Notes under the pieces: generated by a model
What the model saw: the letters and a program-made list of their open reading frames with translations, nothing else
The model's database searches: none
Told to the model about the DNA's origin: nothing
Shown here: in pieces, positions 561-59,964 of the stretch
Layout of the letters: each line of letters begins with the position of its first letter
How positions within the stretch are numbered: the first letter of the stretch is position 1
Translations under genes and position numbers: made by a program
DNA from: a virus
Strand: one strand, 5' to 3'
IMG/VR virus record: IMGVR_UViG_3300044625_001067
Location: 213,245-277,244 of that record
Length of the DNA stretch: 64,000 nt

Positions 561-1166
561 ATGTCCAACAAAATCAACGGTGACTTCGACACTGACTCGA
601 TTGAAGCGTTCAGAGCTGCCTACGCAGCACAAATCCTCGAACCGGAAGACCAAGAGACCGACAAATACACGGGCCTTCCAACCAACTTAGTTCTGAACAC
701 ATCGCCGTGGATTCAGCACACTGGTCTGTGGAAGGCGAACGACGGGTCAAACAAAGACTTTCAGGCCAATCAAGTTCTTGTTCCAGGAATTGAAGAACCC
801 GAGAAAGAGCTCTCCGACGAAGAGCTTGAGGAGCTTATTGATCAGCTTCTTGCAGAGGGCGGCGGCGATGAGCTTTCTGAGGATTCGCTCGAAGATGACG
901 ACTACGACGATGACGCTTACTTTGACACAGGGGAAGAGGAGGAGCCGGAGCTTACCGATGACGAAGTAGAACGGTTAATCGACGAGCTCTTGAGCGAAGA
1001 ATCCGAGCTGGATGAGTTGGACGAACTGGAAGAACTGGAAGACGACTATGACGAAGAGCTATCTGACGAGGATATTGACCGCATAGTGGACGAGCTCTTG
1101 AGTGAAAGCGAAGACGAACTCTTCGAAGACGACCTTGACTCTGACCTTGACTCTGACCTTGACTAA
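561..1166 (+). CDS. Extremely acidic protein with three internal helical repeats
   Basis: A 201-residue protein that is almost entirely Asp/Glu after residue 75. Three degenerate copies of a 17-residue amphipathic unit, E-L-(S/T)-D-(E/D)-x-(L/V/I)-x-x-(L/I)-(I/V)-D-(Q/E)-L-L-(A/S)-E, lie at about residues 83-99, 130-146 and 166-182, separated by poly-acidic linkers; the protein ends in a D-L-D-S-D run. The first 30 residues contain a G-D-F-x-x-x-S-I-E-A-F-R-A-A-Y segment resembling the N-terminal motif of the tagged proteins further on. No family is recognised. Strong acidity suggests a DNA-mimic, a chaperone or scaffold, or an internal head protein; these are guesses. Confidence 0.75.
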   Translation: MSNKINGDFDTDSIEAFRAAYAAQILEPEDQETDKYTGLPTNLVLNTSPWIQHTGLWKANDGSNKDFQANQVLVPGIEEPEKELSDEELEELIDQLLAEGGGDELSEDSLEDDDYDDDAYFDTGEEEEPELTDDEVERLIDELLSEESELDELDELEELEDDYDEELSDEDIDRIVDELLSESEDELFEDDLDSDLDSDLD

Positions 1167-1178
1167 GGGGAACAATCA

Positions 1179-1859
1179 GTGGGTAACCCTAGGAAAAAAT
1201 GCACAGCAGGAAAGTCTTGCTCGGCAACTTGCATAAGCAAGGGGTTTAAATGCAAGAAAAAGTTGCCGTCACCAGTTAGCGACAGTCTCACACGTAACAG
1301 TGAGAAGTTGTTGCACCTTGGTGAGCATGTTGGGGCCAACGTGACGTCTTGGAAAGTTGGGAAAGTTGTTGGCCCCCTGGTATCAAAGTACCTGGAAACT
1401 CGCTACGGCATACCACCGGAAACCACAGAAAAGCTGTCGGAAACTATTGTTCAAGCGGTGGTTGCCACGGGACTTCACTCTCGACATTTAAGGTCGAGTG
1501 AGGACTTTGTAAGAGACCTACTCACAGAAGCTTCTGCCGCGTTCCTGGGGAAAAGTGCCCACACAGGTGTGGAAAGTTTCCTAACCCACCAGGAAAGTCG
1601 CGAGATTGTCCAACAAGCTTTGCCCCTACTTGCAGGAAAGTTCACCGGAATTGGTGCAGCTTTTGCAGGGTCAAAACTTCCCAAAGTGGCCCAAATTTCG
1701 GGCGCCATATCACGAAAGTACAACTCCGACCTTTTGAAGCTACAGAGGCTATTCAGAAGATCTGAAGCTTCATTTTCTGAGCAAACCAACCAGGTAACCT
1801 CAGCTAAGCTTCTCGGAGACCTTTCTCTTCTCTCGGTTTTACTGTCCTTGAACGGGTAA
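1179..1859 (+). CDS. Protein with N-terminal KCTxGKSCxxTCIS Cys tag
   Basis: A 226-residue protein starting at a GTG 12 bp after the preceding stop. Residues 7-27 hold a four-Cys motif, KCTAGKSCSATCISKG followed by KCKKKL, which is closely matched at the N-terminus of the kinase-like protein at 6406-7668 although the rest of the two proteins is unrelated. The remainder is helical and moderately hydrophobic (ALPLLAGKFTGIGAAFAG), without a clear membrane span. Function is unknown. The shared Cys motif implies a portable tag, perhaps for packaging, metal binding or disulfide chemistry. The stop codon lies within the next GGGTAAAAC element. Confidence 0.7.
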   Translation: MGNPRKKCTAGKSCSATCISKGFKCKKKLPSPVSDSLTRNSEKLLHLGEHVGANVTSWKVGKVVGPLVSKYLETRYGIPPETTEKLSETIVQAVVATGLHSRHLRSSEDFVRDLLTEASAAFLGKSAHTGVESFLTHQESREIVQQALPLLAGKFTGIGAAFAGSKLPKVAQISGAISRKYNSDLLKLQRLFRRSEASFSEQTNQVTSAKLLGDLSLLSVLLSLNG

Positions 1860-1862
1860 AAC
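1854..1862 (+). promoter_or_regulatory. GGGTAAAAC element
   Basis: The element overlaps the stop codon of the upstream gene and ends 20 nt before the ATG at 1883. Confidence 0.5.
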
Positions 1863-1882
1863 TGTTTACTGGCGAAATAAGC

Positions 1883-2203
1883 ATGACTCAGTTCAACGAG
1901 AGAGCTCTTCTTATTCGAGCATTAGCGGGTATATTCCTGATTCAGTTTCTAATTGTAGGGTATCAAACGTGGTCCTGCCAATCCTATGCAGAACGTGACA
2001 AAGACTCCACAAAAGTAACCCTCATCTGTAACAATGCGACCAACACATTTAACGAGACCGGGAAGCTAGCACTCACTACAATTTTAGCACTTTTGGTCCC
2101 TTCTTCAGGGCAAAATGTTTCAGAAATAATTTCAACTGTGCGAGGGGGCCGCAAGCGCAAGACTAAAGAAGATGATGGCCTGGACGGAGAAAGTAAGGTC
2201 TAA
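1883..2203 (+). CDS. Small membrane protein, possible holin-like
   Basis: A 106-residue protein with two hydrophobic stretches: residues about 8-27 (LLIRALAGIFLIQFLIVGY) and about 58-75 (GKLALTTILALLVPSS). Two Cys lie between them, and the tail is highly basic then acidic (RGGRKRKTKEDD). Two membrane spans with a charged tail fit a holin or another small phage membrane protein, but no specific family is recognised and the lysis enzyme (GH19 type, 51.3 kb) is far away. The next gene but one also encodes a small protein with an N-terminal membrane span, so the pair could act together at the envelope. Confidence 0.65.
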   Translation: MTQFNERALLIRALAGIFLIQFLIVGYQTWSCQSYAERDKDSTKVTLICNNATNTFNETGKLALTTILALLVPSSGQNVSEIISTVRGGRKRKTKEDDGLDGESKV

Positions 2204-2251
2204 CGTTCCCGTGGGGAAGTAAACCCTGGAGTCCGTTTCTGAGCGAAAAGA

Positions 2252-2260
2252 GGGTAAAGT
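2252..2260 (+). promoter_or_regulatory. GGGTAAAGT element
   Basis: Recurring element ending 22 nt before the ATG at 2283. No Shine-Dalgarno sequence is seen. Confidence 0.5.
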
Positions 2261-2282
2261 TAAGTATCAACGTAAGACCCCT

Positions 2283-3077
2283 ATGTACGGTGCTAACTTA
2301 GACTTTTCGTCTGTAACCCTGCCGGGAGTTGGCGGTTCCATAAATGCGGCTACAGCTATTTCCACAGACAAACTTGAGGAAATGAACCGCACAGGAAAAA
2401 AGTGGCGAACTGACAAAGATGGTAATATGTCTTTTCACAACGAAGCCCTCTTAGAAGCCAATAAGGCTAGCCGCCAAAAGAAAGAGAATCTGGTTAATCG
2501 TGACCGAGACGCTCACGCGGATGGAAAAGCTGCTATGAAAGAGATTTTCGGTCGCAAGCGGGCGAGAATGGAGGCATTTCGAGAAATAAAGAGAAAAGAG
2601 TATAACTTTGCCGATGACACTGAGCTAATGTCTATGCCTCAGCCCTTCTCACAAGCGACTTGCAAGGGAGTGGGCAAATGCAAATGTGACTCTTGCAAAG
2701 CAGCAGCGAAAAGCGACGCAGACTTTCGAGAGTGGTCCGCGAGTAAAAGGCAGAAGTTGCAGTCCGGAGAGGAGCGGGGAGAGTTTGCTGGGCCCGGTAT
2801 GTCCTTTCCCGTCGCAAGCGCTCAAGATGTGTCAGCAGCGTGGTCTTCCGTGGGCAGGGCAGCGAACCCTCGCAAAATTATGTCAGAGATTATTCGCATT
2901 GCTAAGAAATACGGTTGGGAGTCGGGTCTCCCCCAAACGGTGAAAGATCGAATGGGACAAGGGGAGTCAGGCTTGCCTTCCCCGGACTTCCGCGAAGGGG
3001 CACCGAATGCAAGAAAGAGTTCGAGGAAAGCAGCTAGAGCAGCGGCCGAAGTTGGCAAGTCAAGGTTGCCGGAGTAA
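2283..3077 (+). CDS. Phage protein with a DUF6582-like C-terminal segment
   Basis: A 264-residue basic protein. Residues about 120-140 contain a Cys cluster (CKGVGKCKCDSCK) that could bind a metal. Around residues 168-215 is a segment of the type G-P-x-x-S-F-P-V-A-S-x-x-D-V-x-A-A-W followed by A-N-P-x-K-I-x-x-x-I-I-R-I-A-K-K, similar to a short domain seen in many phage head-region proteins (DUF6582-like; recognition from memory, unverified). The C-terminus is Lys/Arg/Ala-rich. Function is unknown. It is followed after 2 bp by the next gene, probably in the same transcript. Confidence 0.65.
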   Translation: MYGANLDFSSVTLPGVGGSINAATAISTDKLEEMNRTGKKWRTDKDGNMSFHNEALLEANKASRQKKENLVNRDRDAHADGKAAMKEIFGRKRARMEAFREIKRKEYNFADDTELMSMPQPFSQATCKGVGKCKCDSCKAAAKSDADFREWSASKRQKLQSGEERGEFAGPGMSFPVASAQDVSAAWSSVGRAANPRKIMSEIIRIAKKYGWESGLPQTVKDRMGQGESGLPSPDFREGAPNARKSSRKAARAAAEVGKSRLPE

Positions 3078-3079
3078 AC

Positions 3080-3451
3080 ATGGGACTTTTTGAAATACCA
3101 CTCATAATCTGCGGCTGGATTTTCACAGCTGGTCTTGCGGGTGTCGGTGGCACCTTTATGATTCAAGGTAAGAACGAGAAAAGAGTTCAGTACCTGAGAA
3201 ACAACGCAGACCAAAAGATAGAACGTCTTATTGAGGAAAACGACAAAAGAATTAACGCTCTGATTGCAGCGAATACTGTCCAGAACGAGAATGTCCTTTC
3301 CCACATTAAGAATGTTGAGAAAGCTCTTAATGACATGAGAGCGGAACTTCCTGAGAAGTACACACTGAAGACAGACCACAACCGTCTTGTCGACAAGGTG
3401 GAAGAGCTTTCTATGCAGTTTTACAGGCATAGGGAGAACGCTAATAGCTAG
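3080..3451 (+). CDS. Membrane-anchored coiled-coil protein
   Basis: A 123-residue protein with one N-terminal hydrophobic segment (about residues 5-28, ending GGTFMIQ) followed by a long charged helix rich in heptad-like Leu/Ile/Asn (IERLIEENDKRINALIAA, then KNVEKALNDMRAEL and DKVEELSMQF). The topology resembles small phage envelope proteins such as inner spanins or holin accessories, but no family motif confirms this. It is probably co-transcribed with the gene 2 bp upstream. Confidence 0.65.
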   Translation: MGLFEIPLIICGWIFTAGLAGVGGTFMIQGKNEKRVQYLRNNADQKIERLIEENDKRINALIAANTVQNENVLSHIKNVEKALNDMRAELPEKYTLKTDHNRLVDKVEELSMQFYRHRENANS

Positions 3452-3452
3452 G

Positions 3453-3461
3453 GGGTAAAGT
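3453..3461 (+). promoter_or_regulatory. GGGTAAAGT element
   Basis: Recurring element starting just after the preceding stop and ending 23 nt before the ATG at 3485. Confidence 0.5.
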
Positions 3462-3484
3462 TAGGTAGTTAACCACTTACAGAA

Positions 3485-3865
3485 ATGAGTCACTGGGGAT
3501 CCTTTTCACCGGAAGCTTACAGAGCTTACAAGTACGGGGTTGAAAACCCCAGCAACTTCATGGGAGTTGCTCCAGCATTTGAGAAAGAGCCAGGGAGGGA
3601 CCCTGACACCTTCTTTATGGGTGAGGACGACGAGGATGACTACGACTCCGACTCTGAATACGAAGACGCTGCCGAAGACGACAGGGAAGTCGAACCGAAC
3701 GGCAGCATGGCCATTTCTCAGTTGCGATCTATGAGGGACAATATTGAAACTATACTGGAACTGGTTGGGCCTTACACGAATCTGAGTCCGTGGATGGCGG
3801 CAAAGTTGGCTGAGGCTGAGAACAGCATGACCTCAGTTGCCGACGCGTTGCAATACGAAGATTGA
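3485..3865 (+). CDS. Small acidic-linker protein with GSFSPEA N-terminus
   Basis: A 126-residue protein. The N-terminus (W-G-S-F-S-P-E-A-Y-R-A-Y-K) matches the start of the tagged effector proteins at 46-62 kb, suggesting the same targeting signal. An acidic, disordered linker (about residues 45-70) follows. The C-terminal ~50 residues form a helical domain with a P-W-M-A-A-K-L-x-x-A-x-x-x-(I/M)-T-x-V pattern that recurs at the ends of many phage proteins, usually of unknown function. There is no Cys module. It may be an internal head protein or assembly factor; this is inference. Confidence 0.65.
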   Translation: MSHWGSFSPEAYRAYKYGVENPSNFMGVAPAFEKEPGRDPDTFFMGEDDEDDYDSDSEYEDAAEDDREVEPNGSMAISQLRSMRDNIETILELVGPYTNLSPWMAAKLAEAENSMTSVADALQYED

Positions 3866-3869
3866 GACA

Positions 3870-4211
3870 ATGTGGGGATCCTTTGACAATTCATCCTACG
3901 CTTCTTTTCGAGAGGCTGCACTGGAAAAGTATGCAGAACAGGTAGACAAAAGCTCTCTCGACTGTAACGACCCCCGCGCCACACCGAGTCACCCAACAAA
4001 ATCTCACATTGTAAAGTCGTGCTACCCTGGCGCACCAAAAGGGGGCAAACTGATTCGATTCGGACAACAAGGCGTGAAAGGGTCGCCAAAGAAAGATGGT
4101 GAGTCAGAGTCTTATAAAGCCAGACGGCAGTCATTTAAAGCGAGGCATGCTGCTAATATTGCGAAGGGGAAGTCTTCTGGTAGTTATTGGGCCAATTTGG
4201 AAAAATGGTAA
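3870..4211 (+). CDS. Conserved small phage protein (RFG...SFKARH...YW type) with WGSF N-terminus
   Basis: A 113-residue protein; the ATG at 3870, 5 nt after the previous stop, is chosen because it gives the M-W-G-S-F start shared with neighbours. The body matches a widespread small phage protein pattern: K-S-H followed by L-I-R-F-G, R-R-Q-S-F-K-A-R-H, a short basic loop, and S-Y-W-A-N-L-x-x-W at the C-terminus. In other phages the same pattern sits in structural gene neighbourhoods with no assigned function. It may be a small nucleic-acid- or metal-binding fold. Confidence 0.65.
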   Translation: MWGSFDNSSYASFREAALEKYAEQVDKSSLDCNDPRATPSHPTKSHIVKSCYPGAPKGGKLIRFGQQGVKGSPKKDGESESYKARRQSFKARHAANIAKGKSSGSYWANLEKW

Positions 4212-4308
4212 GTTAAACTAAAGAATTCTCCCTGGACATATGGGGAATGTAACTTCTGTAGAGGTGAGACCTAATGCGACAAAATACCTCAAACCATGTG
4301 ATGTGACG

Positions 4309-4317
4309 GGGTAAAAC
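4309..4317 (+). promoter_or_regulatory. GGGTAAAAC element
   Basis: Recurring element ending 20 nt before the ATG at 4338. It closes a 126-nt gap (4212-4337) in which nothing else is recognised. Confidence 0.5.
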
Positions 4318-4337
4318 AACTTAGTTGAGCCACGGGA

Positions 4338-4838
4338 ATGATAGGAGACTTTAGCGTACCCAACGTAGATCACCTCACAGAGGGAGTGCATTACCATGTT
4401 GTAGACTGGGACTTTGCGGCATGTGAACCCGACGAGAAGATGGTATACGGTATATGTAGGAAAGTTGGGGGGACCGGGGAAAAAGATTTCGACACGTCAA
4501 AAAGAAGCAAGCAAGAAGAGCAGCTAGGCAACGAAGCCCAAAAGCAAGGTGCCGGGGCGTCAACAAAAGAGCAAGCGTCCGCAGCCAATAAAAAGGCTTT
4601 TACGGTTGAGGGGAAGAAGTTCGGGTGGGCCATCAAGGGAGGCAAGCCAGTAATCGTAGCCTGGGGATCTGTTGCAGGAGAGGCAAAGGTGGGCCCGAAG
4701 CAAAGAGTTTCACCCCAGCCGCAGTCCCCCGCAGTTCAAACGAACAGGATGGAAGGGCTTAAGAAAGCCTTAGCGAGTCAAACCACCGAGAGTGGGCGCC
4801 AGGCCATACAGAATCAAATTCGTCAGCTCGGCGGGTGA
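4338..4838 (+). CDS. Divergent tagged protein (LTEG ... WDFAAC ... CRK module)
   Basis: A 166-residue protein whose first 45 residues look like a diverged copy of the tag on the 46-62 kb effectors: G-D-F near the start, L-T-E-G at 13-16 where others have F-S-E-G, then D-W-D-F-A-A-C and Y-G-I-C-R-K where others have Y-D-F-T-R-C and C-R-K-G. The two Cys and the C-R-K ending are kept. The rest is a low-complexity linker (Ala/Gln/Lys), a compact segment (KKFGWAIKGGKPVIVAWG) and a helical tail. No enzymatic motif is recognised. Confidence 0.65.
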   Translation: MIGDFSVPNVDHLTEGVHYHVVDWDFAACEPDEKMVYGICRKVGGTGEKDFDTSKRSKQEEQLGNEAQKQGAGASTKEQASAANKKAFTVEGKKFGWAIKGGKPVIVAWGSVAGEAKVGPKQRVSPQPQSPAVQTNRMEGLKKALASQTTESGRQAIQNQIRQLGG

Positions 4839-4854
4839 GACAACAGTAGTGAAG

Positions 4855-4863
4855 GGTAAAGTT
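4855..4863 (+). promoter_or_regulatory. GGGTAAAGT element
   Basis: Recurring element with a longer than usual distance (38 nt) to the ATG at 4902. Unlike most copies, a GAAGGGAA purine stretch precedes the start and may serve as ribosome-binding site. Confidence 0.45.
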
Positions 4864-4901
4864 ATGTACAACAAGAATCTCTTTTCTCAAGAAGGGAACC
4901 C

Positions 4902-5336
4902 ATGAATCCTAACTTCCCCGAGAACGAACTTCAGCTCGAAGGTTTCTCCCACATTCCAACGGATTACTACCGGGGAACTGTGATGGAACCCTCAGCCACC
5001 TCGACTCTCCGCCCCAGCTTCGGGGAGTACGGCGCTATGGGCGAGCGGCACGAAGCGATATCGAGAGCAATTGCTGACTTGGGCTTTGCCATGAAACTCT
5101 CTCGACAGCGTGGAGCGTTTCAAGAACTTCAAAGGCAGATGGCTGCGACAAAGAAACTTGTGAAAGAGCGCGAGGAAATTGACGGCAAAATGGCAACGCT
5201 TGACCTGGCCCGAAAGAACACTGACGACCACAATATTGCTGCTGGTATGGAAACTTCCTACTCAGAGCGGATAGACTCTGTGAGCACCCGTATTAACCGT
5301 CTCCAAGAGCTGCTATCCAACTTTAGCGACTTTTAG
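4902..5336 (+). CDS. Hypothetical coiled-coil protein
   Basis: A 144-residue protein. After a disordered N-terminus, residues about 50-140 are a continuous charged helix (AISRAIADLGFAMKLSRQRG, then KKLVKEREEIDGKMATLDLA, then ISTRINRLQELL type text) predicted to form a coiled coil. It ends in aromatic N-F-S-D-F. Early L-Q-L-E-G (residues about 10-14) resembles a prohead-protease-type x-x-E-G site, as in its neighbours. No family is recognised; an internal head or assembly protein is possible. Confidence 0.6.
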   Translation: MNPNFPENELQLEGFSHIPTDYYRGTVMEPSATSTLRPSFGEYGAMGERHEAISRAIADLGFAMKLSRQRGAFQELQRQMAATKKLVKEREEIDGKMATLDLARKNTDDHNIAAGMETSYSERIDSVSTRINRLQELLSNFSDF

Positions 5337-5413
5337 TCCTTATACTCGCCCTACGGAAACCAACCGTTAAACGATAAGATGTACTCGCTTCCACAATTTT
5401 CTCACTGTCAACC

Positions 5414-5785
5414 ATGAACAAACTCGACCATTGTTACCTCGAAGCCCTTTCAGAAGCACTGAAAGGTAACTTAGGCGAAGCTTTAGAACTCCGCAACGAA
5501 GCGGATGCGTTAGCATCCGAAGGTTTCTCCTTCTCTGAGGACTACGGGAGTAAATACCCATTCATTGAAGAAGCTGTAAACACTTTACTTGATTCGTACG
5601 AATTCACTCGATGCGTCCGAGCCGACGGCTCGGCCTATGGTACACGCGGGAAGTGTAAGAAGGGCACAGAGGCTGGAGCGGCTGACCAGAGGGGTGTAGG
5701 TAAGAAGGGTTCCATTAAGGAAAGAAAGGTAGCACGACTTTACGAAGCCCTTAAAGAAAAGAAACTTACGAGTAACGCGACCTAG
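5414..5785 (+). CDS. Tagged protein, N-terminal part (FTRCVRADGSAYGT module)
   Basis: A 123-residue product made of a helical N-terminus, a candidate cleavage region (L-A-S-E-G-F-S-F-S-E), and the shared module (F-T-R-C-V-R-A-D-G-S-A-Y-G-T, then G-K-C-K-K-G-T-E). It stops at a TAG (5783-5785), but the same frame reopens at once and continues for about 200 codons as the next entry. The residues before the stop (ARLYEALKEKKLTSNAT) resemble the short helical spacer that precedes unrelated bodies in three other tagged proteins. The gene may therefore be one longer gene interrupted by, or read through, a UAG codon. Confidence 0.7.
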   Translation: MNKLDHCYLEALSEALKGNLGEALELRNEADALASEGFSFSEDYGSKYPFIEEAVNTLLDSYEFTRCVRADGSAYGTRGKCKKGTEAGAADQRGVGKKGSIKERKVARLYEALKEKKLTSNAT

Positions 5786-5791
5786 CGATTA

Positions 5792-6400
5792 ATGAGACAG
5801 ATGCTTGACACTCCAGAAGTTAAGAGCCAGTTTTCAAGTCTAGAAAAGAAAGGCGACGTGGAAGGGGCGAGAGCCCTTTACTCCAAGATTGAAGCTGAGG
5901 CTGGAAAAAGGGCGAGTGCAGGGGAAGGGAGACTGGCCAAGGGCGACAGTAGGACACCTGCCAGTGCGGACAGGGCTCGTGCGTCAGAGAAAGCAGAAAG
6001 CAGAAAGAGTCCGATGAAGTTAGGGAAAGAACAGCCACAGGCCGGGAAAGACATATCACCACGAAGAAGAAAAACTACAGCAGAGTATAAGGCAGTAGCG
6101 GTACAACTATTTGATCTTTATAAAATTGCTCAGCGAAAAGAGCGAGAAGCGGAAAAGGCACTAAAAAGCGTTGAGAAAGAAACCAAAGGCGACAATAGTC
6201 GTGAAGCGAGGCTAAAACGCTCTACTGCAGAGAAAGCTTTAATGAAGGCGTACTCAAGTGGAGAAAGAGCTATGAAGGCTGAACTCAAAGCAAACTCATC
6301 CTATATGAAATCACTCAAGAAGGACGTACGAGCTAAGATGAGTCCCCAACAAAAGGCCGCTGAAAAGGAGATTGATAAAATAATACAGGAACGAGGTTGA
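5792..6400 (+). CDS. Basic helical protein, in frame with the upstream tagged ORF
   Basis: A 202-residue, strongly basic, Lys/Ala/Glu-rich protein in the same frame as the preceding ORF and separated from it by one TAG and two sense codons. The start (RQMLDTPEVKSQF) looks like the second half of the spacer domain found in the proteins at 49.6 and 53.4 kb. Composition is like that of internal head proteins of other phages: small, basic, helical, no catalytic motif. Either it is translated separately from the ATG at 5792, or it forms one fusion with the upstream tag by UAG readthrough, or the gene is broken. Confidence 0.65.
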   Translation: MRQMLDTPEVKSQFSSLEKKGDVEGARALYSKIEAEAGKRASAGEGRLAKGDSRTPASADRARASEKAESRKSPMKLGKEQPQAGKDISPRRRKTTAEYKAVAVQLFDLYKIAQRKEREAEKALKSVEKETKGDNSREARLKRSTAEKALMKAYSSGERAMKAELKANSSYMKSLKKDVRAKMSPQQKAAEKEIDKIIQERG

Positions 6401-6405
6401 GTCTA

Positions 6406-7668
6406 GTGAAACGCTGCACCAAGGGAAAGAGCTGTGGAGGTACCTGCATTAGCCGCGAGGCTAAGTGCAGAGCCTCCTTGACCCCCAAACTATCCCACCA
6501 AGTAGAAAACTTACAGGGATCATTAGCAGGCAAAGTTGCTAAGAGTGGCGAGACAAACCCGCTGGTCAAGGACCTTATTGAGGCGTTAGCGTCCAACTCA
6601 AAGGTCAGGGTGGGTAATGACTTCCCATCGTTAAAGCGGGAGGCAGAGCGCCAGCTTGCTGAGCTGCGCAGTAAAGAGTATATGACGGACGAGGAAATAA
6701 ATAGGGCCACGAAAGTTGAAAAGGCACTCTTTGACACATGGGCCAAGCACACCAGGGCGGATCGCCCAGCTATTCAAGAACGTCAAAATGCACTCGAATT
6801 CGACTCCGAGTTTACACCAACCCTAAAGTTAGGGGGTAGCTACGACTGGAAACAGTCGTACGAATCAGGATCAAAGGGGTTAGGATCAGGTTTGTACGGA
6901 GCGGTAATTGCATCCAAACCACCCCCGTCCGTAGTCGTGAAAAGGGGGGAGGTGGGGGAAAATGAAGTGAGAATTCTTGAGAAATTAAGTGGAAAGGATA
7001 TCACCCCCAGGCTAATCTCGGCTGAGATGAATAAATCTGCTGAGTTCAACAACGCTGGGTACTACCCTGGAAGAATAGCAATGTCCCGTGTAAGGGGTAA
7101 GCCGGCTGAAGACTTTGAATCCTACGAAAGCCCAGTCGGAAGCACAACTGTGGGAGACTCTTACTACGCTCTACGAAAGAAGCTCCATGAGCAAGGTGTT
7201 GCCCATAATGACGCCCACGTAGGAAACGTAATTATCGATGACAAGGGGAAAGCACGTTTTGTTGACTTCGGTGTTTCACAGGATGACCCTCGTGCAGCTC
7301 TCTCAGAGGCCATTGGAGTTTTATCGGTGAGGTACTTACTACCCCCTGGTGCAATGCTCAGAAAGCCACTCAATGAAAACTCAGGGGATTTTCAGGCACG
7401 AGACAACAAGCAGTTTTACTTGCCACCATCCACTACAGTTACTCCTAAGGGAACTACCCCCAAAACGAACCTTGGGAAGATTATACGAAACCGAATCAAA
7501 GTTTACTCCGAGATGGAAAAGCTTGGTCTTAACAAAGACGATATTGCTGAGGTGGTGACCCACAGTTTAGACCAACCACTTAGCTCTTACAACAAAGGTG
7601 CTTGGGGTAAGATCGGCAAAGACGACGCTGCAAGGCTTATTTCCATACTTTACGAAGGGGTTAGTTAA
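6406..7668 (+). CDS. Protein kinase-like protein with KCTxGKSC Cys tag
   Basis: A 420-residue protein. The GTG at 6406 is preferred because GAGG lies 9 nt upstream; a TTG at 6397 abuts that GAGG. The N-terminus has the four-Cys tag (RCTKGKSCGGTCIS, then K-C). The kinase fold is supported by a Gly-rich loop GSGLYG (160-165), V-V-V-K with Lys179, a following E-V-R-I-L-E-K-L helix, the catalytic loop H267-N-D269-x-H-x-x-N274, and D287-F-G. It is homologous through to its C-terminus (LYEGVS) with the kinase at 46412-47794, which has a different tag. Phosphorylation of host proteins after injection is a reasonable guess; a RIO/APH-like small-molecule kinase is an alternative. Confidence 0.75.
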   Translation: MKRCTKGKSCGGTCISREAKCRASLTPKLSHQVENLQGSLAGKVAKSGETNPLVKDLIEALASNSKVRVGNDFPSLKREAERQLAELRSKEYMTDEEINRATKVEKALFDTWAKHTRADRPAIQERQNALEFDSEFTPTLKLGGSYDWKQSYESGSKGLGSGLYGAVIASKPPPSVVVKRGEVGENEVRILEKLSGKDITPRLISAEMNKSAEFNNAGYYPGRIAMSRVRGKPAEDFESYESPVGSTTVGDSYYALRKKLHEQGVAHNDAHVGNVIIDDKGKARFVDFGVSQDDPRAALSEAIGVLSVRYLLPPGAMLRKPLNENSGDFQARDNKQFYLPPSTTVTPKGTTPKTNLGKIIRNRIKVYSEMEKLGLNKDDIAEVVTHSLDQPLSSYNKGAWGKIGKDDAARLISILYEGVS

Positions 7669-33575: not shown

Positions 33576-34678
33576 ATGGCAGATCCCTTTTCCGGGGGAC
33601 TCGGAAGTACGAAACAAGAGATTGGAATACTAACCGAAGCGAAAGAGAGAAACAAGGCAGCGTCCTTCCGGTCGAAGAAAGACGGAGAGGAAAAACAAGA
33701 GAAGAAAAAGAGAGCACCCACAAAAGTGTCCGAGCTTTACAACTCAGGCGTCACTCTGCTGAAGGCGAAGGGGTTCGTTATTGAGATCGACGAGTCCGGT
33801 GACCACTGTAAGCACCGTATTCTGAAGCCCACGCCACCGGTAATGGTAAGGGGAATTCAGTACCCGGCAGACTTCAACCCCTTGCAGGATATCTCAGTTT
33901 ACGACGACTTTGAAAAAGTCGAGTCATGCTTCCATCCTGACTTGTGTCCAGACGACGTAAGAACTTTCTGGGAACCTTTATTCAAACCGAAAGCCGGTGA
34001 CTCAGATCTCGTCTCTTTCACAGAGCGGCTGCTGAAGATGAAGAGAATAAACATGAGCAAGAGCATTCATGAAACGCTAAGTTACGGCCATACATTTGAC
34101 CCTGCGGCTCGGTGGGGTGGAGTTCCTGTCTCTAATCCAAGGTCGTGGGTACCAGACAGAGACTGGTTCAACCCTGTTCTGCAACTGGTTACCCTAGCTG
34201 ACGTTTTCTCTATCTTTCCTGAGGCAGAGCGGGAAATGCTCAGGTTGATTATTGGGCGAATCGGGGTAGGCAGGTCAAATCACTTGCCACCGGGAAAGGA
34301 CCAGCCTGTAGATCACACTGCTCGTATGGCGGGGGTGATTGTGGGTAAGGATGCTGGATTAGGAAAGTCGACTCTCTTCAATGGAATGACCGCAGCTTTT
34401 TCCAAGTGCGGTTTTGTAACCCACACGTTTAAATCGACTGAGGATCGCTTCGGCCTTAAAGCTGCTGCTCTTAGTGACATAGCATACAAGGATGATACCT
34501 CCTTGGCTTCTCTCAAGAAGTTCCTTGCTTCTGAGGAGACCAAGATTTTGATCACGAATGGGCTTTTCCAAGTAGAAGAAAAGTTCGAGAAGGCCGAGCA
34601 AATTTGGCCAAAGACAGTCATATTGGTTAACTCCAATGACTGGAACAGTAAGTTTGCCTACGACTTAGATCCGGGGAT
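33576..34678 (+). CDS. D5/SF3-type helicase-like replication protein, exon 1
   Basis: First exon of a gene interrupted by a group I intron; join of 33576-34678 and 35608-36529 gives 2025 nt and 674 residues in one frame. This exon has a basic N-terminus, then a P-loop G257-K-D-A-G-L-G-K264-S-T, T-H-T-F-K-S-T-E-D-R-F, Y-K-D-D-T-S, I-L-I-T-N-G-L-F-Q-V-E-E-K-F and T-V-I-L-V-N-S-N-D-W. The N-S-N pattern resembles SF3 motif C, and the order fits phage D5-type replicative ATPases rather than DnaB-like gp41. It probably unwinds DNA at the phage origin or fork. Unspliced reading stops at 34715. Confidence 0.7.
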
Positions 34679-35607
34679 TGACGCACTAGTCCCCCTGCCC
34701 GGTAACGGACAGTAAAAAACGCATTCTAAACGGGGGAACCCCTTGGCGGGTAAAATCTGTAAAACAAGGGCAATCCCGTGCTAAGTGGAATTTATCGAAT
34801 CTTTTGTACGTCAAATGGTAAGTCATACACTGGATCCTCAATAAACATTGACTCTCGGTGGGGTAAGCACATATACTTACTTCGCAAAGACTGTCATTCT
34901 AATGTTCACCTTCAAAACTGCTTCAACAAGTACGGTAGAGAATCTCTAGAGTTCAGCTTGCTTGAAGACCTTAGCGGTCTACCCCTGGACGAGATCCGGG
35001 AGGTTGAGCAGAAATACTTGGACTCCCTGGACTGGAGTGAAGCACTAAACATATGCAAAGACTCCAGGGGTGGGCAGATAACAGAGGAAGCTAATGAGAG
35101 ACGAAGGGAGTCTCTAAGGGACTATTACAAAACTAACCCCGATGCTTTGCGGGGGGGAGAATAATCCCTTCTATGGCAAAAAACACAGTCAAAGTACAAA
35201 AGACAGCATATCCAGAGCTAATAGCGGCAAGATGAGGTCAGACGAGTTTAAGAGACAGAAATCTGAGTTTATGTCTAACCGCAAGGGCGTACACCATAGC
35301 GAAGAACACAAAAGTAAACTAAAGGACAAGTTTACCGGCGGCGGTAATCCTAATGCCATAGAGACCGTCATCAACGGTGTAGTGTACCCTACAAAACGTG
35401 AAGCCCTGAGAGCTTTGGGCCTGAGATATGACTATCAACTTGATAAACACCTAAAAGCCGAACGACTATCCCGAGAGGGAGTAGAGTCAAGTGACTCGAA
35501 ACGAATGCCCCCTGTGTAAGCAGGGAGAAGATATAGTCTGCTCTGAATGGTAACATTCAGCTGGGTTAGTCCCGGAAAAAGTCTAACGATCTTTTTTGAA
35601 CATTTGG
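34679..35607 (+). ncRNA. Group I intron in the helicase gene
   Basis: A 929-nt intron predicted from the interrupted frame and RNA structure. P1: exon GGGGATT (34673/34674-34679) pairs with the internal guide AGTCCCC (34688-34694), placing the U-G wobble at T34678. The core has GGGCAATCCCGTGCTAAG (from about 34769), like the P4-P5 region of other group I introns. P3: GCATTC (34721-34726) with GAATGC (35503-35508). P8: CCCTG/CAGGG hairpin just after. P7 3' strand is AAGATATAGTC at 35528-35538. P9: CTGAATG/CATTCAG with a GTAA tetraloop (35543-35560). The intron ends at G35607. Splicing gives D-P-G-I-I-D-R-I-K-L across the junction. Confidence 0.85.
34778..35519 (+). pseudogene. Intron-encoded GIY-YIG homing endonuclease, frameshifted
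   Basis: The 5' part (34778-35164) encodes a GIY-YIG nuclease start (S-G-I-Y-R-I-F-C-T-S-N-G-K-S-Y-T-G-S-S, later N-K-Y-G-R-E-S-L-E-F and E-Q-K-Y-L-D-S-L). The 3' part (to 35519) in another frame encodes NUMOD3-type text (E-N-N-P-F-Y-G-K-K-H-S) and a DNA-binding tail. Removing one G from the G run at about 35151-35157 fuses them into D-A-L-R-G-E-N-N-P-F-Y-G-K-K-H, the expected NUMOD3 join. The gene is therefore inactive, slippage-dependent or miscalled by one base in this sequence. The GTG start lies inside the ribozyme core. Confidence 0.8.
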
Positions 35608-36529
35608 TATTGATCGCATTAAGCTCATTAGTACATATAGGGAGTATGAGGTAACAAAAAACATCGAGAACACGAAAGGGACAGTGTCAGAGGGGTCTCC
35701 CGACCTTCGCCCACGAGCACACATTCCTTACCTCTCTAATAAGCTAGGTGTGAGTGCTGATGCGTTGTATCTTTGGTGTCTCCGCCTCGCTACCGATAGG
35801 TTCTGGGAAATCATTAACGATGTAGCTGATCCCCGCATCAATCGCCTTCAGGTTGAAGTGCGCTATTGGACCACACGACAAAGGATCCGATTCAAAGCCG
35901 ATGTCACACAGGCACTCGTTAATGCCATGGCGTTCGCTCACTCGGTTCGAACGGGGTCAGACCTTAGCTTCATGCCCGAGCTGACGCCGGATGTTCTCTA
36001 CGAGTATCTCAGTTCTCTTTACTTTGTGGGAGTGGACCCGTCGTGCCAACACTTAACTGCGAGCATGAAAAAAGAGTGGGAGAACGCAGGGCGTCCGTCG
36101 ACACATTACTACCAAGGTTTCCGAGAGCTAAGGTGGGAATCTGTGAGAAAGGCAATTTCCCTCGCACGAGAGTTTCTGTTCGACGAAACGACGGGTCAGC
36201 GGCAAGAGACCAAGGACAAAACAGCTCTGACGCTAATTCGAGAGATAATGGAAAAGCTGGTGATGAGGGATGGTTTTAAGATTGGTGGCGAGGCGAACTA
36301 CGTCATTGAAAACTGGAACAATTGTCGTCACGCTCAAGAGGAACTTGTTTTGGAAGGGGAAAAGCTAGTTGAATCCATGGAAGACATGGACAAACAAAGA
36401 CTACTCAACCCTAAGACAAATTGCTGTGACGATTGGCTTCTTGACAAGAACTACTCACCCGATGTTGCTGAAAGGTTCCGAGAATCCGCACGTAAAAAAC
36501 TCTACGAGGTTAAAGGGGTAAAAGTATGA
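35608..36529 (+). CDS. D5/SF3-type helicase-like replication protein, exon 2
   Basis: Second exon of the intron-split gene. From T35608 the frame reads I-D-R-I-K-L-I-S-T-Y-R-E-Y-E-V and continues to the TGA at 36527-36529. It holds the C-terminal domain (H-I-P-Y-L-S-N-K-L-G-V-S-A-D-A-L-Y-L-W-C-L-R-L), rich in helices, with no second nucleotide-binding motif. A GTG at 35684 could be mistaken for an independent start, but the frame is open upstream to the intron boundary. The stop overlaps the next start (ATGA). Confidence 0.7.
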
Positions 36530-42549: not shown

Positions 42550-45519
42550 ATGAATACAGAACTTACTCACCCACATTGGATGAATGAAGAGGCCCTTCAT
42601 ACTCTCTCTAATGGCTACTTATTAGTAGGTGAGACTCCGAAGGATATGTTTAGCCGTCTCGCAAAAACGGCGTCAAAGATAAACGAAGATCCGACACTAG
42701 ACGAAGACTTGTTCCACTGCCTTTGGTCCGGCTGGATTGGCGCAGCGAGTCCGGTGGCGTCCAATTTCGGTACAAACCGTGGTCAACCTATATCCTGCTT
42801 TTCTGTTCACCCTTCAGACAGCATTTCCTCTATCTACTCACACTTAAAAGAAGTAGCTCAACTGAGCAAAAGTGGGGGAGGAGTGGGCAACTACTTCGGG
42901 GAAATTCGTCCTGCAGGGTCGCCTATAACCGGAGGTGGAAAATCAATTGGCGCTGTACCCTGGATGCAGCAATACGATATTTGTGCGAGAGTCGTGAGCC
43001 AAGGGGGCGTTCGAAGGGGCTCGTTTGCATTTTACCTCCCAATCGACCACCCCGATGTGCCTGAGCTTCTGCGTGCTAAAGATCACACAAAAGGAGACCC
43101 ACGGACCTGGGTAGACTCAAATATAGCACTCACCATATCTGACGAGTGGATAGAGTCTATGATTAAGGGTGATAAACAAAAGCATGAGTTGTTCGCAGAG
43201 GTTTTGAGAACAAGAATGATTTCTGGTACTCCTTACCTGATTTTCATTGACAATGCTAACAACCAGAACCCGGATTGCTACAAAGAAAGGGGACTGACTG
43301 TAAAGACCAGTAATTTATGCTTCACAGCAGACACTCTTGTAGCCGTTGCTGACGGCAGGAATTCGGTTCCAATTGGTGACCTGGTTAACACTTCGTTCCC
43401 TGTGTATTCAGCTCGTCAGCGCAGGTACCGAGGCACAGCCTTAGGGAACCAGTGGGTGACAGAGATTAAGAATGCCATAGCATTTAAGACCGGAACCCGT
43501 GAAGTCATTGAAGTAGAGCTCGAAGACGGGAGCACGTTTAAGTGCACTCCTGACCACCTATTAGCTAAAATGGATTGCTCTTACGTAGAAGCGGAACACT
43601 CGGTCGGAGAAACTCTTGAGCCATTTTCCTCTTTCGTGAATGAATTTGGGCATCGAATGATCAATACCGTGACGAATGGCCATAGTCGTCAAAGTCGACT
43701 CATTTGGACGAATGTTAACGGTCAGCCTCCTAAGGGTTATAACGTTGACCACCTTATTTCGGGGGGCGGGGACAACATAGAAAACCTACAAATTCTCAGA
43801 AAAGAAGCACACCATGAGAAAACTTCAACAGAAAGGAAAGGGTTGGGTAACCCTATTCACAAGGTAGATCCTGGTTTCCACTCTAAATATGCTTCTGCAG
43901 CAGTAACAGGAAAGAAAAATCCCCGCTTTAGCGGAATTGACAATTACAAGTTAATTGAGCTTGGTCAAGAGATTTACAAAGAAACGGGCAGTTTCACCAA
44001 ACAAGATTACCTCACTTTAAGGGAGAGGGGTTACAATGTGCCTTACTCCTTCTCTAACTACCGGTTTGGAGGCTCTTTCAGCGATTATCGCAACTATGTT
44101 TTAGGAGAAGACACGTACGGGGGCGAGTATGAAGTCGGGCCAGAAGCTCCTGTTAATATTCGCAAGGAAGAGAAGGAGCGTACAAAGTCAAAAGTGTCAG
44201 ACATTCGACGAAATGGACTTCGCGTTACTAGCGTCCGAAGTATAGGAATAGAAGATGTTTACGACCTACGCGTTGAAGACAATCACAACTTCTACATCAT
44301 TACAAAAACTGGAGACATTAACTCAGGAGTTCTTGTCCATAACTGTTCGGAAATCTTCCTACACACTGACGAGAACCACTCATTCGTGTGCGTCCTCAGT
44401 AGCTTAAACCTGAGTCGCTACGACGAGTATAAGGATTGGAAGTCTCCTACTTCAGGCCGTACTGTTCCTCAAATCGGGATTCACTTCCTTGAGGCAGTCG
44501 TTAGCGAGTTTATACGCAAAGCCAAAGACAAGGTTGGCATGGGTAGATCCGTTCGTTTCGCAGAGAAGAGCCGTGCTCTTGGCTTGGGAGTCATGGGACT
44601 TCACTCCCTCTATCAACTGCACGGTTTACCTGTGAAGTCACAAGGGGCGCGAGAGTTAAACGTCGAAACAACTCGATGGATGAAGGAAGAAGCGGTTAAG
44701 GCTTCGAAAGAGCTGGCTGAAAGATTTGGAGAACCGGAATGGTGCAAGGGCACCGGAATGCGTCACACGCATTTAATCGCGATCGCACCAACCAAAACAA
44801 ATAGTGTGATTTGCGGGGCAGGAACCGAAGGCATAGAGCCACGAGATCGAAACTACTACGTCGCCAAACAAGCCAAGGGCACTTATGTTCGAAAAAACCA
44901 GTACCTTAAAAAAATCTTCTGCGATCGAGGAGTAGGTCCGGAAGTTTGGGATCAAATTCTAGTGGCCAAGGGGAGTGTTCAGGGTGTTGAATGCTTAACT
45001 GAGCACGAGAAAGAGGTGTTCAGGACTGCACGAGAGGTGGACCAGTTTGAGCTTATCAAGCAGGCTGCAGACCGGCAACCTTACGTGTGTCAGGGTCAAT
45101 CGCTAAATCTGTTTCCAGACCCAAAGTCGGATGCGTCGTATATTACTCGTCTGCACCTTGCTGCATGGAAAATGGGGCTGAAGTCGCTTTATTACCTGAA
45201 GTCAAGCAGCCTTCTTACGAATAAAGAAGTTGTCCCTGCTTTGATTGTGACCCGCGAGGGTTGTCCGTGGTGTGTGAAACTTAAGAACGAGCTGTCTATG
45301 GACGGAGTTCGGTACGAAGAAATTACTAAAGTGGAAGCGGAGGAGAAAGGCTTCTGGAACCCTGAGTGGACAACTGTACCCCAACTGTGGCTTTTCAAGA
45401 AACACATTGGGGGTTACACCGACTACATAGAATACAAACAATCGAATAACACCGAGACGGTCAGCGCCCATGACGATTCAGACGGCGCTTACAACGAATG
45501 CAAAAGCTGCGAGGCTTAA
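42550..45519 (+). CDS. nrdA: Ribonucleotide reductase large subunit with intein and fused glutaredoxin
   Basis: A 989-residue precursor; removal of the intein (residues 257-598) leaves 647. No N-terminal ATP cone is present. Catalytic parts are Cys83 (P-I-S-C-F, like E. coli C225), S-N-L joined to Cys599-S-E601 (thiyl radical C439 and E441), Cys614 (V-C-V-L-S-S-L-N, like C462) and Tyr881-Tyr882 (L-K-S-L-Y-Y). After the core comes a glutaredoxin domain (active site C905-P-W-C908, later T-V-P-Q-L-W-L-F) and the C-terminal redox tail C984-K-S-C987. It makes dNDPs or dNTPs with NrdB. The glutaredoxin between core and tail may reduce its own tail. Confidence 0.88.
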   Translation: MNTELTHPHWMNEEALHTLSNGYLLVGETPKDMFSRLAKTASKINEDPTLDEDLFHCLWSGWIGAASPVASNFGTNRGQPISCFSVHPSDSISSIYSHLKEVAQLSKSGGGVGNYFGEIRPAGSPITGGGKSIGAVPWMQQYDICARVVSQGGVRRGSFAFYLPIDHPDVPELLRAKDHTKGDPRTWVDSNIALTISDEWIESMIKGDKQKHELFAEVLRTRMISGTPYLIFIDNANNQNPDCYKERGLTVKTSNLCFTADTLVAVADGRNSVPIGDLVNTSFPVYSARQRRYRGTALGNQWVTEIKNAIAFKTGTREVIEVELEDGSTFKCTPDHLLAKMDCSYVEAEHSVGETLEPFSSFVNEFGHRMINTVTNGHSRQSRLIWTNVNGQPPKGYNVDHLISGGGDNIENLQILRKEAHHEKTSTERKGLGNPIHKVDPGFHSKYASAAVTGKKNPRFSGIDNYKLIELGQEIYKETGSFTKQDYLTLRERGYNVPYSFSNYRFGGSFSDYRNYVLGEDTYGGEYEVGPEAPVNIRKEEKERTKSKVSDIRRNGLRVTSVRSIGIEDVYDLRVEDNHNFYIITKTGDINSGVLVHNCSEIFLHTDENHSFVCVLSSLNLSRYDEYKDWKSPTSGRTVPQIGIHFLEAVVSEFIRKAKDKVGMGRSVRFAEKSRALGLGVMGLHSLYQLHGLPVKSQGARELNVETTRWMKEEAVKASKELAERFGEPEWCKGTGMRHTHLIAIAPTKTNSVICGAGTEGIEPRDRNYYVAKQAKGTYVRKNQYLKKIFCDRGVGPEVWDQILVAKGSVQGVECLTEHEKEVFRTAREVDQFELIKQAADRQPYVCQGQSLNLFPDPKSDASYITRLHLAAWKMGLKSLYYLKSSSLLTNKEVVPALIVTREGCPWCVKLKNELSMDGVRYEEITKVEAEEKGFWNPEWTTVPQLWLFKKHIGGYTDYIEYKQSNNTETVSAHDDSDGAYNECKSCEA
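43318..44343 (+). mobile_element. Intein with HNH endonuclease inserted in nrdA
   Basis: A 342-residue in-frame intein. It begins with Cys257 (C-F-T-A-D-T-L-V-A-V-A-D-G, block A), has block B with T-P-D-H, and ends with V-Y-D-L-R-V-E-D-N-H-N-F-Y-I (block F) and G-V-L-V-H-N598 (block G), followed by Cys599. The middle contains an HNH-type homing endonuclease (N-V-D-H-L-I, then N-I-E-N-L-Q-I-L and E-A-H-H-E-K). Insertion lies between the Leu and the catalytic Cys of the S-N-L-C motif, so the +1 splicing nucleophile is also the radical-site Cys. Confidence 0.92.
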
Positions 45520-46385: not shown

Positions 46386-46389
46386 AAGT
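46380..46389 (+). promoter_or_regulatory. GGGTAAAAGT element
   Basis: Recurring element overlapping the end of the preceding ORF and ending 22 nt before the GTG at 46412. This spacing supports GTG 46412 as the kinase gene start. Confidence 0.55.
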
Positions 46390-46411
46390 GTGTAGGTATA
46401 GATTCTGCACA

Positions 46412-47794
46412 GTGCAAGGTTCCTTCTCATCCGATGCCCTTCAGGCGTACAAAACTCTGATCGCCGAGCAGCACCCTTCGGACTTTTCTGAGGGGGGAAC
46501 GTACGACTTTACACGTTGTGTGAGGAAAGATGGCACTGTGTATGGAACGGCGGGACAGTGTAGGAAGGGTACAGAAGAGGCCAAGGAAAGTGTTTCAAGG
46601 GAGAAAGTAAAGGGTAAAGGGACGAAGAAAACAGTAAAGTCAACGCCACCCGGGAAACCCCTCCCTCCAGAGCTCCATTCGTCAATCTCAAAACTCTCAG
46701 AAAAGCTGTCGGATAAGAAAATGTTGGCTACGCCACAACAAAGAGCGTCTGCGTCAGGGTTAGAACCCGGTGAGGGTAAAAGCGGCGAAGCGAAAGCGAC
46801 GAAGAAAGAGGTTTTGGAAGACATTAAGAGCATTCTTGAAGAGAATCGGGGTCCAAGAGAGGTGAGCAAGAAAGTTAACTCAGCTGGTCTAACCCACGAA
46901 GAAGAAATAGCCGTGATGGTAGACACTGAGCTCGCAAGGGACGGCTATATAAGACAAGGAGACCCGAAGTACGACGGTTGGAGTCGCGCCTTCGATAAAG
47001 AGGCCAAGATACTAGGGTCGGGTATATACGGCACTGCGATTCTAAGTCCGGACGGCGAAGTTGTTAAAAGAGGTCTAATTAGCCGCACAGAGGCTGCTGT
47101 CATGGATAAAGTTGGTAAAGCGGACTTGGGGCCGAGGTTAATAGCTGCGGACATTACCAACAAGCCTTTCTTCCCGACCCGTAAGGTAACGGGGTTAGAC
47201 CTAAGAAACGGTCGTATCGCTATGACTAAAGTTGAGGGGACACCCCTTGGTGAAATCCAAAATAGAGATTCCAGTAGAGCAAATACAGATTCCTATTGGA
47301 AGGCTCGTGCAGATTTACACAGAATGGGTGTTGCCCACAATGATATGCACGAATACAATGTTCTAGTTGATGACAAAGGTAAGGGACGATTCGTTGACAT
47401 GGGATCGGCGCAAGACAACCCGAAAGCAGCCCTCGTGGAGGCACTGGGTGCTTTCCCAGGACCCAAGGGCAAAAGCGCAGACGCTGCCTTTTCAAATTGG
47501 GGTCCAGGCGGAAACCTAATTTCAGACGTAGAAAGAAAGAAAATCACTCCGAAACAAAGAGCAAACTACTTGGCATTTCTCAAAGAGGATGCCCCGCTAG
47601 CCTACAAAGCGTACACAAACAAAGAGAGAGCTATCGAGAAACTCCGAAGTTTTGGGATTGACGGTGAAGACATGACTAAAGTTCTTACCACTAAAACTAG
47701 CACTCGCGACGAGAAGTATAAGGTGGGGCCTTGGGCTAAACTAAGCGACAAGCAAGCGATGGAAGTGATCAACACGCTCTACGAGGGTATCTAA
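46412..47794 (+). CDS. Tagged protein kinase-like effector
   Basis: A 460-residue protein. GTG 46412 is chosen because it gives M-Q-G-S-F-S as in sister genes. Tag: M-Q-G-S-F-S-S-D-A-L-Q-A-Y, D-F-S-E-G at 24-28, then Y-D-F-T-R-C-V-R-K-D-G-T-V-Y-G-T and C-R-K-G-T-E. A low-complexity linker follows. The kinase domain has GSGIYG (202-207), V-V-K with Lys219, catalytic loop H309-N-D311-M-H-x-x-N316, and D329-M-G in place of D-F-G. It is homologous over kinase and C-terminus (L-Y-E-G-I) with the 6406 protein. It may be packaged in the capsid and phosphorylate host targets after injection; this is inference. A small partner gene overlaps the stop. Confidence 0.78.
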   Translation: MQGSFSSDALQAYKTLIAEQHPSDFSEGGTYDFTRCVRKDGTVYGTAGQCRKGTEEAKESVSREKVKGKGTKKTVKSTPPGKPLPPELHSSISKLSEKLSDKKMLATPQQRASASGLEPGEGKSGEAKATKKEVLEDIKSILEENRGPREVSKKVNSAGLTHEEEIAVMVDTELARDGYIRQGDPKYDGWSRAFDKEAKILGSGIYGTAILSPDGEVVKRGLISRTEAAVMDKVGKADLGPRLIAADITNKPFFPTRKVTGLDLRNGRIAMTKVEGTPLGEIQNRDSSRANTDSYWKARADLHRMGVAHNDMHEYNVLVDDKGKGRFVDMGSAQDNPKAALVEALGAFPGPKGKSADAAFSNWGPGGNLISDVERKKITPKQRANYLAFLKEDAPLAYKAYTNKERAIEKLRSFGIDGEDMTKVLTTKTSTRDEKYKVGPWAKLSDKQAMEVINTLYEGI

Positions 47795-58884: not shown

Positions 58885-59964
58885 ATGGCTAGTTCAGTTT
58901 TACAACGTCCTCAGAGTAATCTTTGGGAGCGTTTCAATGGTTGGGTCACATCGACTAACAACCGTATTTTCATCGGCAACTTTGGAGTCTTAATGATTCC
59001 GTGTCTCTCTGTCGCTGCAATCGTTTTTGTTCTTGCCATCATCGCGGCCCCGCCAGTCGATCTGGATGGTATTAGGGAGCCCCTCTCAGGGTCGCTAATG
59101 TACGGGAATAATATAATTTCCGCTGCAGTGGTTCCAAGTTCTAATGCGATTGGATTGCACTTTTACCCGCTATATGAAGCCCAGTCTCTTGAAGAATGGT
59201 TATACAATGGGGGCGAATACCAGATGATTGTGTTTCACTTTCTGATCGGTATAGCTTGCTATGCTGGCCGTCAGTGGGAACTTTCATACTACCTGGGTAT
59301 GCGCCCCTGGATTTTTGTGGCTTACCTGGCCCCTGTGTCAGCCGCTTTCGCAGTGTTTCTGATCTACCCCGTGGGACAGGGTAGTTTCTCTGATGCAATG
59401 CCTTTGGGCATAAGTGGAACTTTTAACTACCAAATTGTGTTCCAAGCGGAACATAATATACTAATGAACCCCCTGCATATGCTAGGAGTCGCTGGCGTGT
59501 TTGGTGGTGCTTTGTTTAGCGCAATGCATGGGAGTTTAGTAACCAGCTCTCTCGTTCGGGAGACCACTGAAAACGAGTCCCATAACAATGGGTACAAGTT
59601 TGGTCAAGACCAGGAGACGTACAATATTGTTGCAGCTCACTCCTACTTCGGACGACTCATCTTCCAGTACGCATCCTTCAACAACAGCCGCAGCCTGCAC
59701 TTTCTTCTGGCGGCGTTCCCTGTGGTTGGAATTTGGTGTGCCTCGATGGGTATTGCGATCTCCGCAACCAACTTAAACGGCCTGAACTTTAACCAATCTG
59801 TCCTCGATCACACAGGAAAAGTTATTCCCACTTGGGCAGACATCCTTAACAGGGCGGACCTCGGGTTGGAAGTGATTCACGAAAAAAACAGTCACCAGTT
59901 CCCCCTAGATCTGGCCTCTGCCTCTTCAACACCTGTCGCTCTAACCGCCCCTTTAGTCGGTTGA
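58885..59964 (+). CDS. psbA: Photosystem II reaction centre protein D1
   Basis: A 359-residue D1 protein, normal length with five membrane helices. All key residues are in register: Gln130, Tyr161 (Tyr-Z), Asp170, Glu189, His190, His198 (P680 ligand), His215, Ser264 (QB), His272, His332, Glu333, His337, Asp342 and Ala344, followed by a short cleavable tail (V-A-L-T-A-P). It replaces damaged host D1 during infection. Several positions normally constant in D1 differ: Asn32 (usually Trp), Tyr136 (usually Arg), Asn195 (usually His) and Ser253 (usually Gly), so this copy looks unusually divergent. There is no intron. Gln130 is typical of the low-light D1 form. Confidence 0.95.

Follow-up and report, generated by a model that had tools for sequence, protein, structure and literature searches.

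A group IA2 intron with a frameshifted endonuclease in the primase-helicase gene of a probable cyanophage and its intron-rich relatives

Host gene and intron fold

The window, i.e., the whole 64,000-nucleotide stretch analysed here, is the final 64 kb of a virus record of 277,244 bases. It carries a primase-helicase gene (33576–36529) which is interrupted after position 34678 and continues at 35608 (Table 1). When these two positions are joined, a single open frame of 2025 nt results, which encodes 674 aa and reads DPGI/IDRIKL across the exon junction. The breakpoints, the length of the joined frame, and the sensible junction had been given correctly in a preliminary description of the sequence. 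The family matched by the encoded protein is phrog_25243 “DNA primase” (E 1e-125); a DUF5906 domain is also present, with a match just at the cut-off. A PDB search with the primase sequence gave no hit. The primase was also searched in bacterial genome contigs and was not found, so there is no evidence of a prophage from this search.

A full-length psbA gene is located at 58885–59964. Because of this gene and the kinship with Synechococcus phage S-CBWM1, the virus is assigned as a probable cyanophage, and its host would be a cyanobacterium. Two other plus-strand genes of the window were noted. The large subunit of ribonucleotide reductase (42550–45519) has an in-frame insert at approximately residues 207–598. 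This insert resembles an intein that contains an endonuclease of the HNH type; its Intein_splicing match, at 31.8 bits, is under the cut-off. The gene at 46388–47794 encodes a protein with a weak kinase/RIO-like match; a PknB-like kinase is also present in S-CBWM1.

Table 1 Features at the primase-helicase locus (window positions; all on the plus strand)
Feature	Position	Details
Primase-helicase exon 1	33576–34678	Codons 1–367 and two bases of codon 368; unbroken alignment to intron-less homologues
Site A	34358/34359	Empty in the window; after codon 261, in Walker A between GKDAG and LGKST; filled in L027, L037
Site B	34485/34486	Empty in the window; codon 304; filled in L031–L033, L035–L037
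Site C	34563/34564	Empty in the window; codon 330; filled in L025, L026, L028, L031–L033, L035–L037
Co-conversion tract (allele comparison)	34665–35620	Exon bases −14 to −1 (34665–34678) and +1 to +13 (35608–35620), flanking the intron
P1	34673–34694	Exon GGGGAU (34673–34678) with guide GUCCCC (34689–34694); U·G at the splice site, invariant in 13/13
Group IA2 intron, site D	34679–35607	929 nt; preceded by U (34678), final base G (35607); site empty in L020, L021, L025, L026
P2	34695–34712	One C·A mismatch in the window copy; among relatives, each of the six pairs has changes on both sides
P3, 5′ strand	34721–34726	GCAUUC with GAAUGC (35503–35508); 4/6 pairs change on both sides, every cell paired
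P4 and P5	34730–34779	P4 34730–34733 with 34776–34779; P5 34740–34745 with 34765–34770; RF00028 and covariation model
GIY-YIG half of intron ORF	34778–35164	GTG start; PF01541 35 bits; overlaps P4/P6; stop after the frameshift
NUMOD3 half of intron ORF	35142–35519	Other frame; PF07460 42.3 bits; 3′ end overlaps P7–P8
G7 run	35151–35157	Point of frame change; shared by L023, absent from L027
P7, P7.1, P7.2, P3 3′ strand, P8	35464–35538	P7 35464–35468 with 35534–35538; P7.2 35484–35497; P3 3′ strand 35503–35508; P8 35510–35525; RF00028 and covariation model
P9, P9.1, P9.2	35543–35596	P9 with GUAA loop (35543–35560); all six P9.2 pairs change on both sides
Primase-helicase exon 2	35608–36529	Frame restored on joining

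The insertion between the exons is confirmed as a group I intron of subgroup IA2, and it is predicted to be self-splicing. It is assigned to IA2 because P7.1 and P7.2 are present; both lie between P7 and the 3′ strand of P3 and are 100% paired, with covariation. A whole-window Rfam search at the gathering threshold gave no match. RF00028 aligned with the 3′ core (35398–35560) at 29.8 bits (E 2.4e-5; gathering score 50) and with a second piece, P4–P6 (34730–34823), at 12.3 bits. The window intron remains under the threshold because its ORF splits the two halves of the core. In relatives, introns which occupy this site but have no ORF scored 64.7 and 58.9 bits. The RF00028 check proposed in the preliminary description therefore failed the threshold for the window copy and passed it for these siblings.

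For the covariation test, 13 introns from sites C and D were stripped of their ORFs and aligned, with P1–P9 as a fixed structure. In this model, 95.7% of 860 cells are paired. Changes on both sides occur in 29 of the 67 pairs, a value which none of 500 shuffles reached, and shifting the partner columns by one lowers the pairing to 50–54%. The elements that had been picked out by eye, namely P1 with its U–G pair, P3, P4–P5, P7, P8, and a GTAA-capped P9, are all supported by the covariation model.

Primase alleles, intron sites, and endonuclease

We compared the gene with 36 primase relatives from IMG/VR. No intron gap is present at any of the four sites in 24 of these, some of which are partial contigs; extra “introns” listed near the gene ends of some intron-less relatives are artefacts of the splice aligner. 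Two intron-less relatives, L020 and L021, share approximately 99% protein identity with the window and 96–97% DNA identity over 12 kb. A 99.8% identical contig, L023, carries the identical 929-nt insertion. The group I intron proposed earlier at this position is hence borne out by the frame-restoring junction, the covarying P1–P9, and the empty alleles, and the proposed alignment with intron-less homologues confirmed the last point.

A stretch of 107 codons in the ATPase core contains all four sites, with site D at codon 368 being occupied in the window. L037 is filled at all four sites, L031–L033 and L035–L036 at B, C, and D, and L027 at A and D. Only C is filled in L025, L026, and L028, and only D in L023 and L034. 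Windows of 11 residues at the sites have a mean identity of 95% among homologues, compared with 71% gene-wide (permutation P 6e-4). Group I introns are known to favour conserved sites (PMC2814812), and this result fits that pattern.

A tree was built from 77 introns. In it, primase introns from sites A–D fall into a single group (100/99), each site on its own branch, and the capsid and psbA introns described below are in separate groups of their own. Trees built from only the 3′ or 5′ parts still grouped strongly by gene, with 3 and 6 label changes compared with 29 in shuffles, and the primase group was not strictly one clade in them. Strict one-clade-per-gene families, which hold for whole introns and not for either part alone, were thus rejected in favour of strong clustering. 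The primase introns at the four sites probably share one ancestor.

The exon bases next to the intron differ from the empty alleles in an uneven way. Between −14 and +13, borders which were picked after inspection, 7–8 silent differences fall within 27 bases when the window is compared with L020, L021, L025, and L026, all empty at site D. Across the remaining 1995 bases of the gene, 58–70 differences from these four alleles were counted, with 1–5 in the 172 bases adjoining the tract. From −10 to +12, the window is identical to the carriers L027 and L037, though approximately 20% of their gene differs from that of the window. This flank pattern is what co-conversion during homing leaves, with a predicted cut of the empty allele.

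The intron ORF encodes a GIY-YIG/NUMOD3 endonuclease in two frames, and the Pfam matches of both halves exceed the cut-off. The ORF is continuous in L027, L031, and L034, and the intact L027 homologue matches the I-TevI structures 1mk0 (E 2.3e-12) and 1ln0. A one-base frameshift in the G7 run leaves the window copy without a complete endonuclease frame. Because, in each half, most of the differences from L027 are at third codon positions, the break may be recent, an error, or tolerated. In L032, L033, and L037, most of the ORF is deleted. L035 and L036 have the site D intron of L031 and L032, but their GIY-YIG ORF is swapped for an unrelated, HNH-like ORF (HNH as judged by eye). Loss or exchange of the endonuclease thus appears to have occurred on several occasions among related introns.

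The preliminary description had overlooked the GIY-YIG endonuclease, the homing footprint, the three other primase sites, and the intron density of the genome.

Capsid and psbA introns

A cluster of RF00028 matches approximately 20 kb upstream of the window coincides with the major capsid gene. In the window virus, this gene has six exons (9, 32, 240, 22, 53, and 697 nt) and five introns. The locus (L046, 3800–7484; G000:C1, about 191800–195484) includes two introns with large ORFs. In the contig of L033 (G003; L145 reverse complement, 1651–7428), the capsid gene is split by 13 introns, and some of its exons measure only 5, 8, and 10 nt; the intron at site 93 is without a clear 3′ splice site. 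A separate contig (G033; L154 reverse complement, 569–7529) has 11 capsid introns at sites matching those of G003, and the very short exons occur in the same positions. Each of these 11 is overlapped by an RF00028 match, and splicing in silico restores the full protein of 351 aa. The score for G033 was approximately 1550, versus approximately 200 for shuffled or reversed DNA. As a negative control, most of the 80 capsid loci closest to that of the window have zero introns.

Introns also interrupt psbA: the contig of L037 has seven, the contig of L028 has four, and S-CBWM1 has two, which are annotated in GenBank. The genes with seven and four introns are L146 and L147, both reverse complements (G006 and G009). 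The splice aligner forces a U before each intron and a G at its end, and neither base counts as support for the introns of capsid and psbA. Aligner introns at weakly matching gene ends (L010, L030, and the N-terminus of S-CBWM1 psbA) were ignored as false.

A frame-restoring insertion of 215 nt was noted at capsid nt 75 (L148, 1149–1363) and at the corresponding position in L149, L050, and L053. It may represent a group I intron in reduced form or some other element. These insertions do not contain the J8/7-P7 motif and were kept out of the trees.

Interpretation and comparison with known systems

We are highly confident that the window contains a mobile, self-splicing group IA2 intron of the T4 td/I-TevI type, with relatives at four primase sites and an endonuclease which is frameshifted in this copy. 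Judging from the anatomy, the exon sequence GGGGAU would pair with the guide GUCCCC in the primase pre-mRNA. The ribozyme core would bind guanosine in P7, cut after the U·G pair, and join the exons, which would yield an intact primase-helicase. An intact I-TevI-like endonuclease is predicted to cut the intron-less alleles of co-infecting relatives, and repair from the intron-bearing copy would spread the intron along with short exon flanks. Because its endonuclease is frameshifted, the window intron probably still splices but no longer homes by itself.

As the frame changes through one G in a homopolymer, the endonuclease could still be made if the G7 run is slippery in transcription or translation, or if that G was introduced by assembly; full mobility of the intron would follow. 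Third-position differences in both halves, as in a maintained gene, are in line with this. However, G7 is also found in the second assembly, L023, which matches the window in intron and primase but differs from it in 26 columns farther downstream (the two samples may be related), and endonuclease decay is common at site D. On balance, we consider a still-functional endonuclease possible but doubtful. The opposite view, that the locus consists of two separate genes or of a pseudogene broken by a free-standing endonuclease, with no splicing, takes its support from the separate frames reported by ORF callers. It is hardly credible given the covarying group I fold, the exact frame-restoring junction, the intact exons, and the empty-site alleles.

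The flank differences could also reflect selection for good P1 and P10 pairing instead of co-conversion, as some of the changed bases are located in P1 and P10 or close to them, beside the splice sites (CTGGGAT in an empty allele, CGGGGAT in carriers). Since the differences at −14, −13, −11, −8, +10, and +13 fall outside both helices, we regard this as quite improbable. A benefit to the phage, through an endonuclease directed against co-infecting competitors or through late gene timing, is a further explanation for why such introns are kept. An intron endonuclease aids interference competition in the jumbo phage PhiPA3 (PMC11620839), and the introns recur here at conserved sites of important genes. 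Near-identical alleles without a primase intron nevertheless coexist (L020 and L021), and endonucleases decay repeatedly as the selfish cycle predicts, which makes such a benefit unlikely as the main reason.

The window intron has a close counterpart in the T4-like phages. Their td introns share the IA2 fold with P7.1/P7.2, they harbour, as here, an I-TevI-type GIY-YIG/NUMOD3 endonuclease in the region of P6, and they are 78% identical to the last 155 nt of the window intron (E 1e-25). The td host gene is thymidylate synthase, whereas here it is a primase-helicase, the endonuclease is frameshifted, and in relatives, nearby sites of this gene carry three sister introns. The closest cultured relative, the cyanophage S-CBWM1 (NC_048106), has no such introns in its primase and capsid genes; one of its two psbA introns has an endonuclease, and both belong to a different tree group.

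That cyanophage introns are known mainly from psbA, as stated in the preliminary description, was too strong. Cyanophage Pf-WMP3 has a DNA polymerase intron with I-PfoP3I (PMC3428280), which likewise is an IA2 intron with an endonuclease in a replication gene, but with an HNH endonuclease, a polymerase host gene, and a single intron. Helicase introns are known from staphylococcal phages (PMC5526547), and crAss-like phages of the Delta and Zeta groups have group I introns in MCP and primase, with up to 14 introns per genome (PMC7886860). The window intron itself is conventional; what is unusual is the intron density in the primase gene and in the phage lineage. The crAss-like phages are other phages with other hosts, and their example MCP has approximately four introns versus 11–13 in the relatives here. 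Mycobacteriophage LittleE has a single capsid intron (PMC3706429). Three introns in one gene are reported for Twort (PMC5526547), and several, at most three, for Bastillevirinae (PMC11878797), compared with four primase sites, up to seven introns in psbA, and up to 13 in MCP here. We found no report of more than approximately four introns in one phage gene in the openly accessible literature; priority is uncertain, as subscription papers were mostly beyond reach.

We think it likely that this phage lineage is saturated with introns. Most of the spread of its group I introns would have taken place inside individual genes, with four sites in primase, up to seven introns in psbA, and up to 13 in MCP with exons of 5–10 nt. 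Essential and highly expressed genes would depend on many successive ribozyme reactions, on which exons of 5 nt could impose a fixed order, and would be the most intron-dense phage genes in the accessible literature.

The close primase alleles show most stages of the intron life cycle, namely the empty site and intact, broken, deleted, and swapped endonucleases, together with a co-conversion footprint. As four seemingly co-descended introns are present in one gene, the movement of introns to new sites becomes testable on close relatives. If the capsid genes with 11–13 introns splice, the most abundant protein of these phages would be produced via a dozen ribozyme reactions, with exons down to 5 nt, from genes of a kind that annotation pipelines would overlook.
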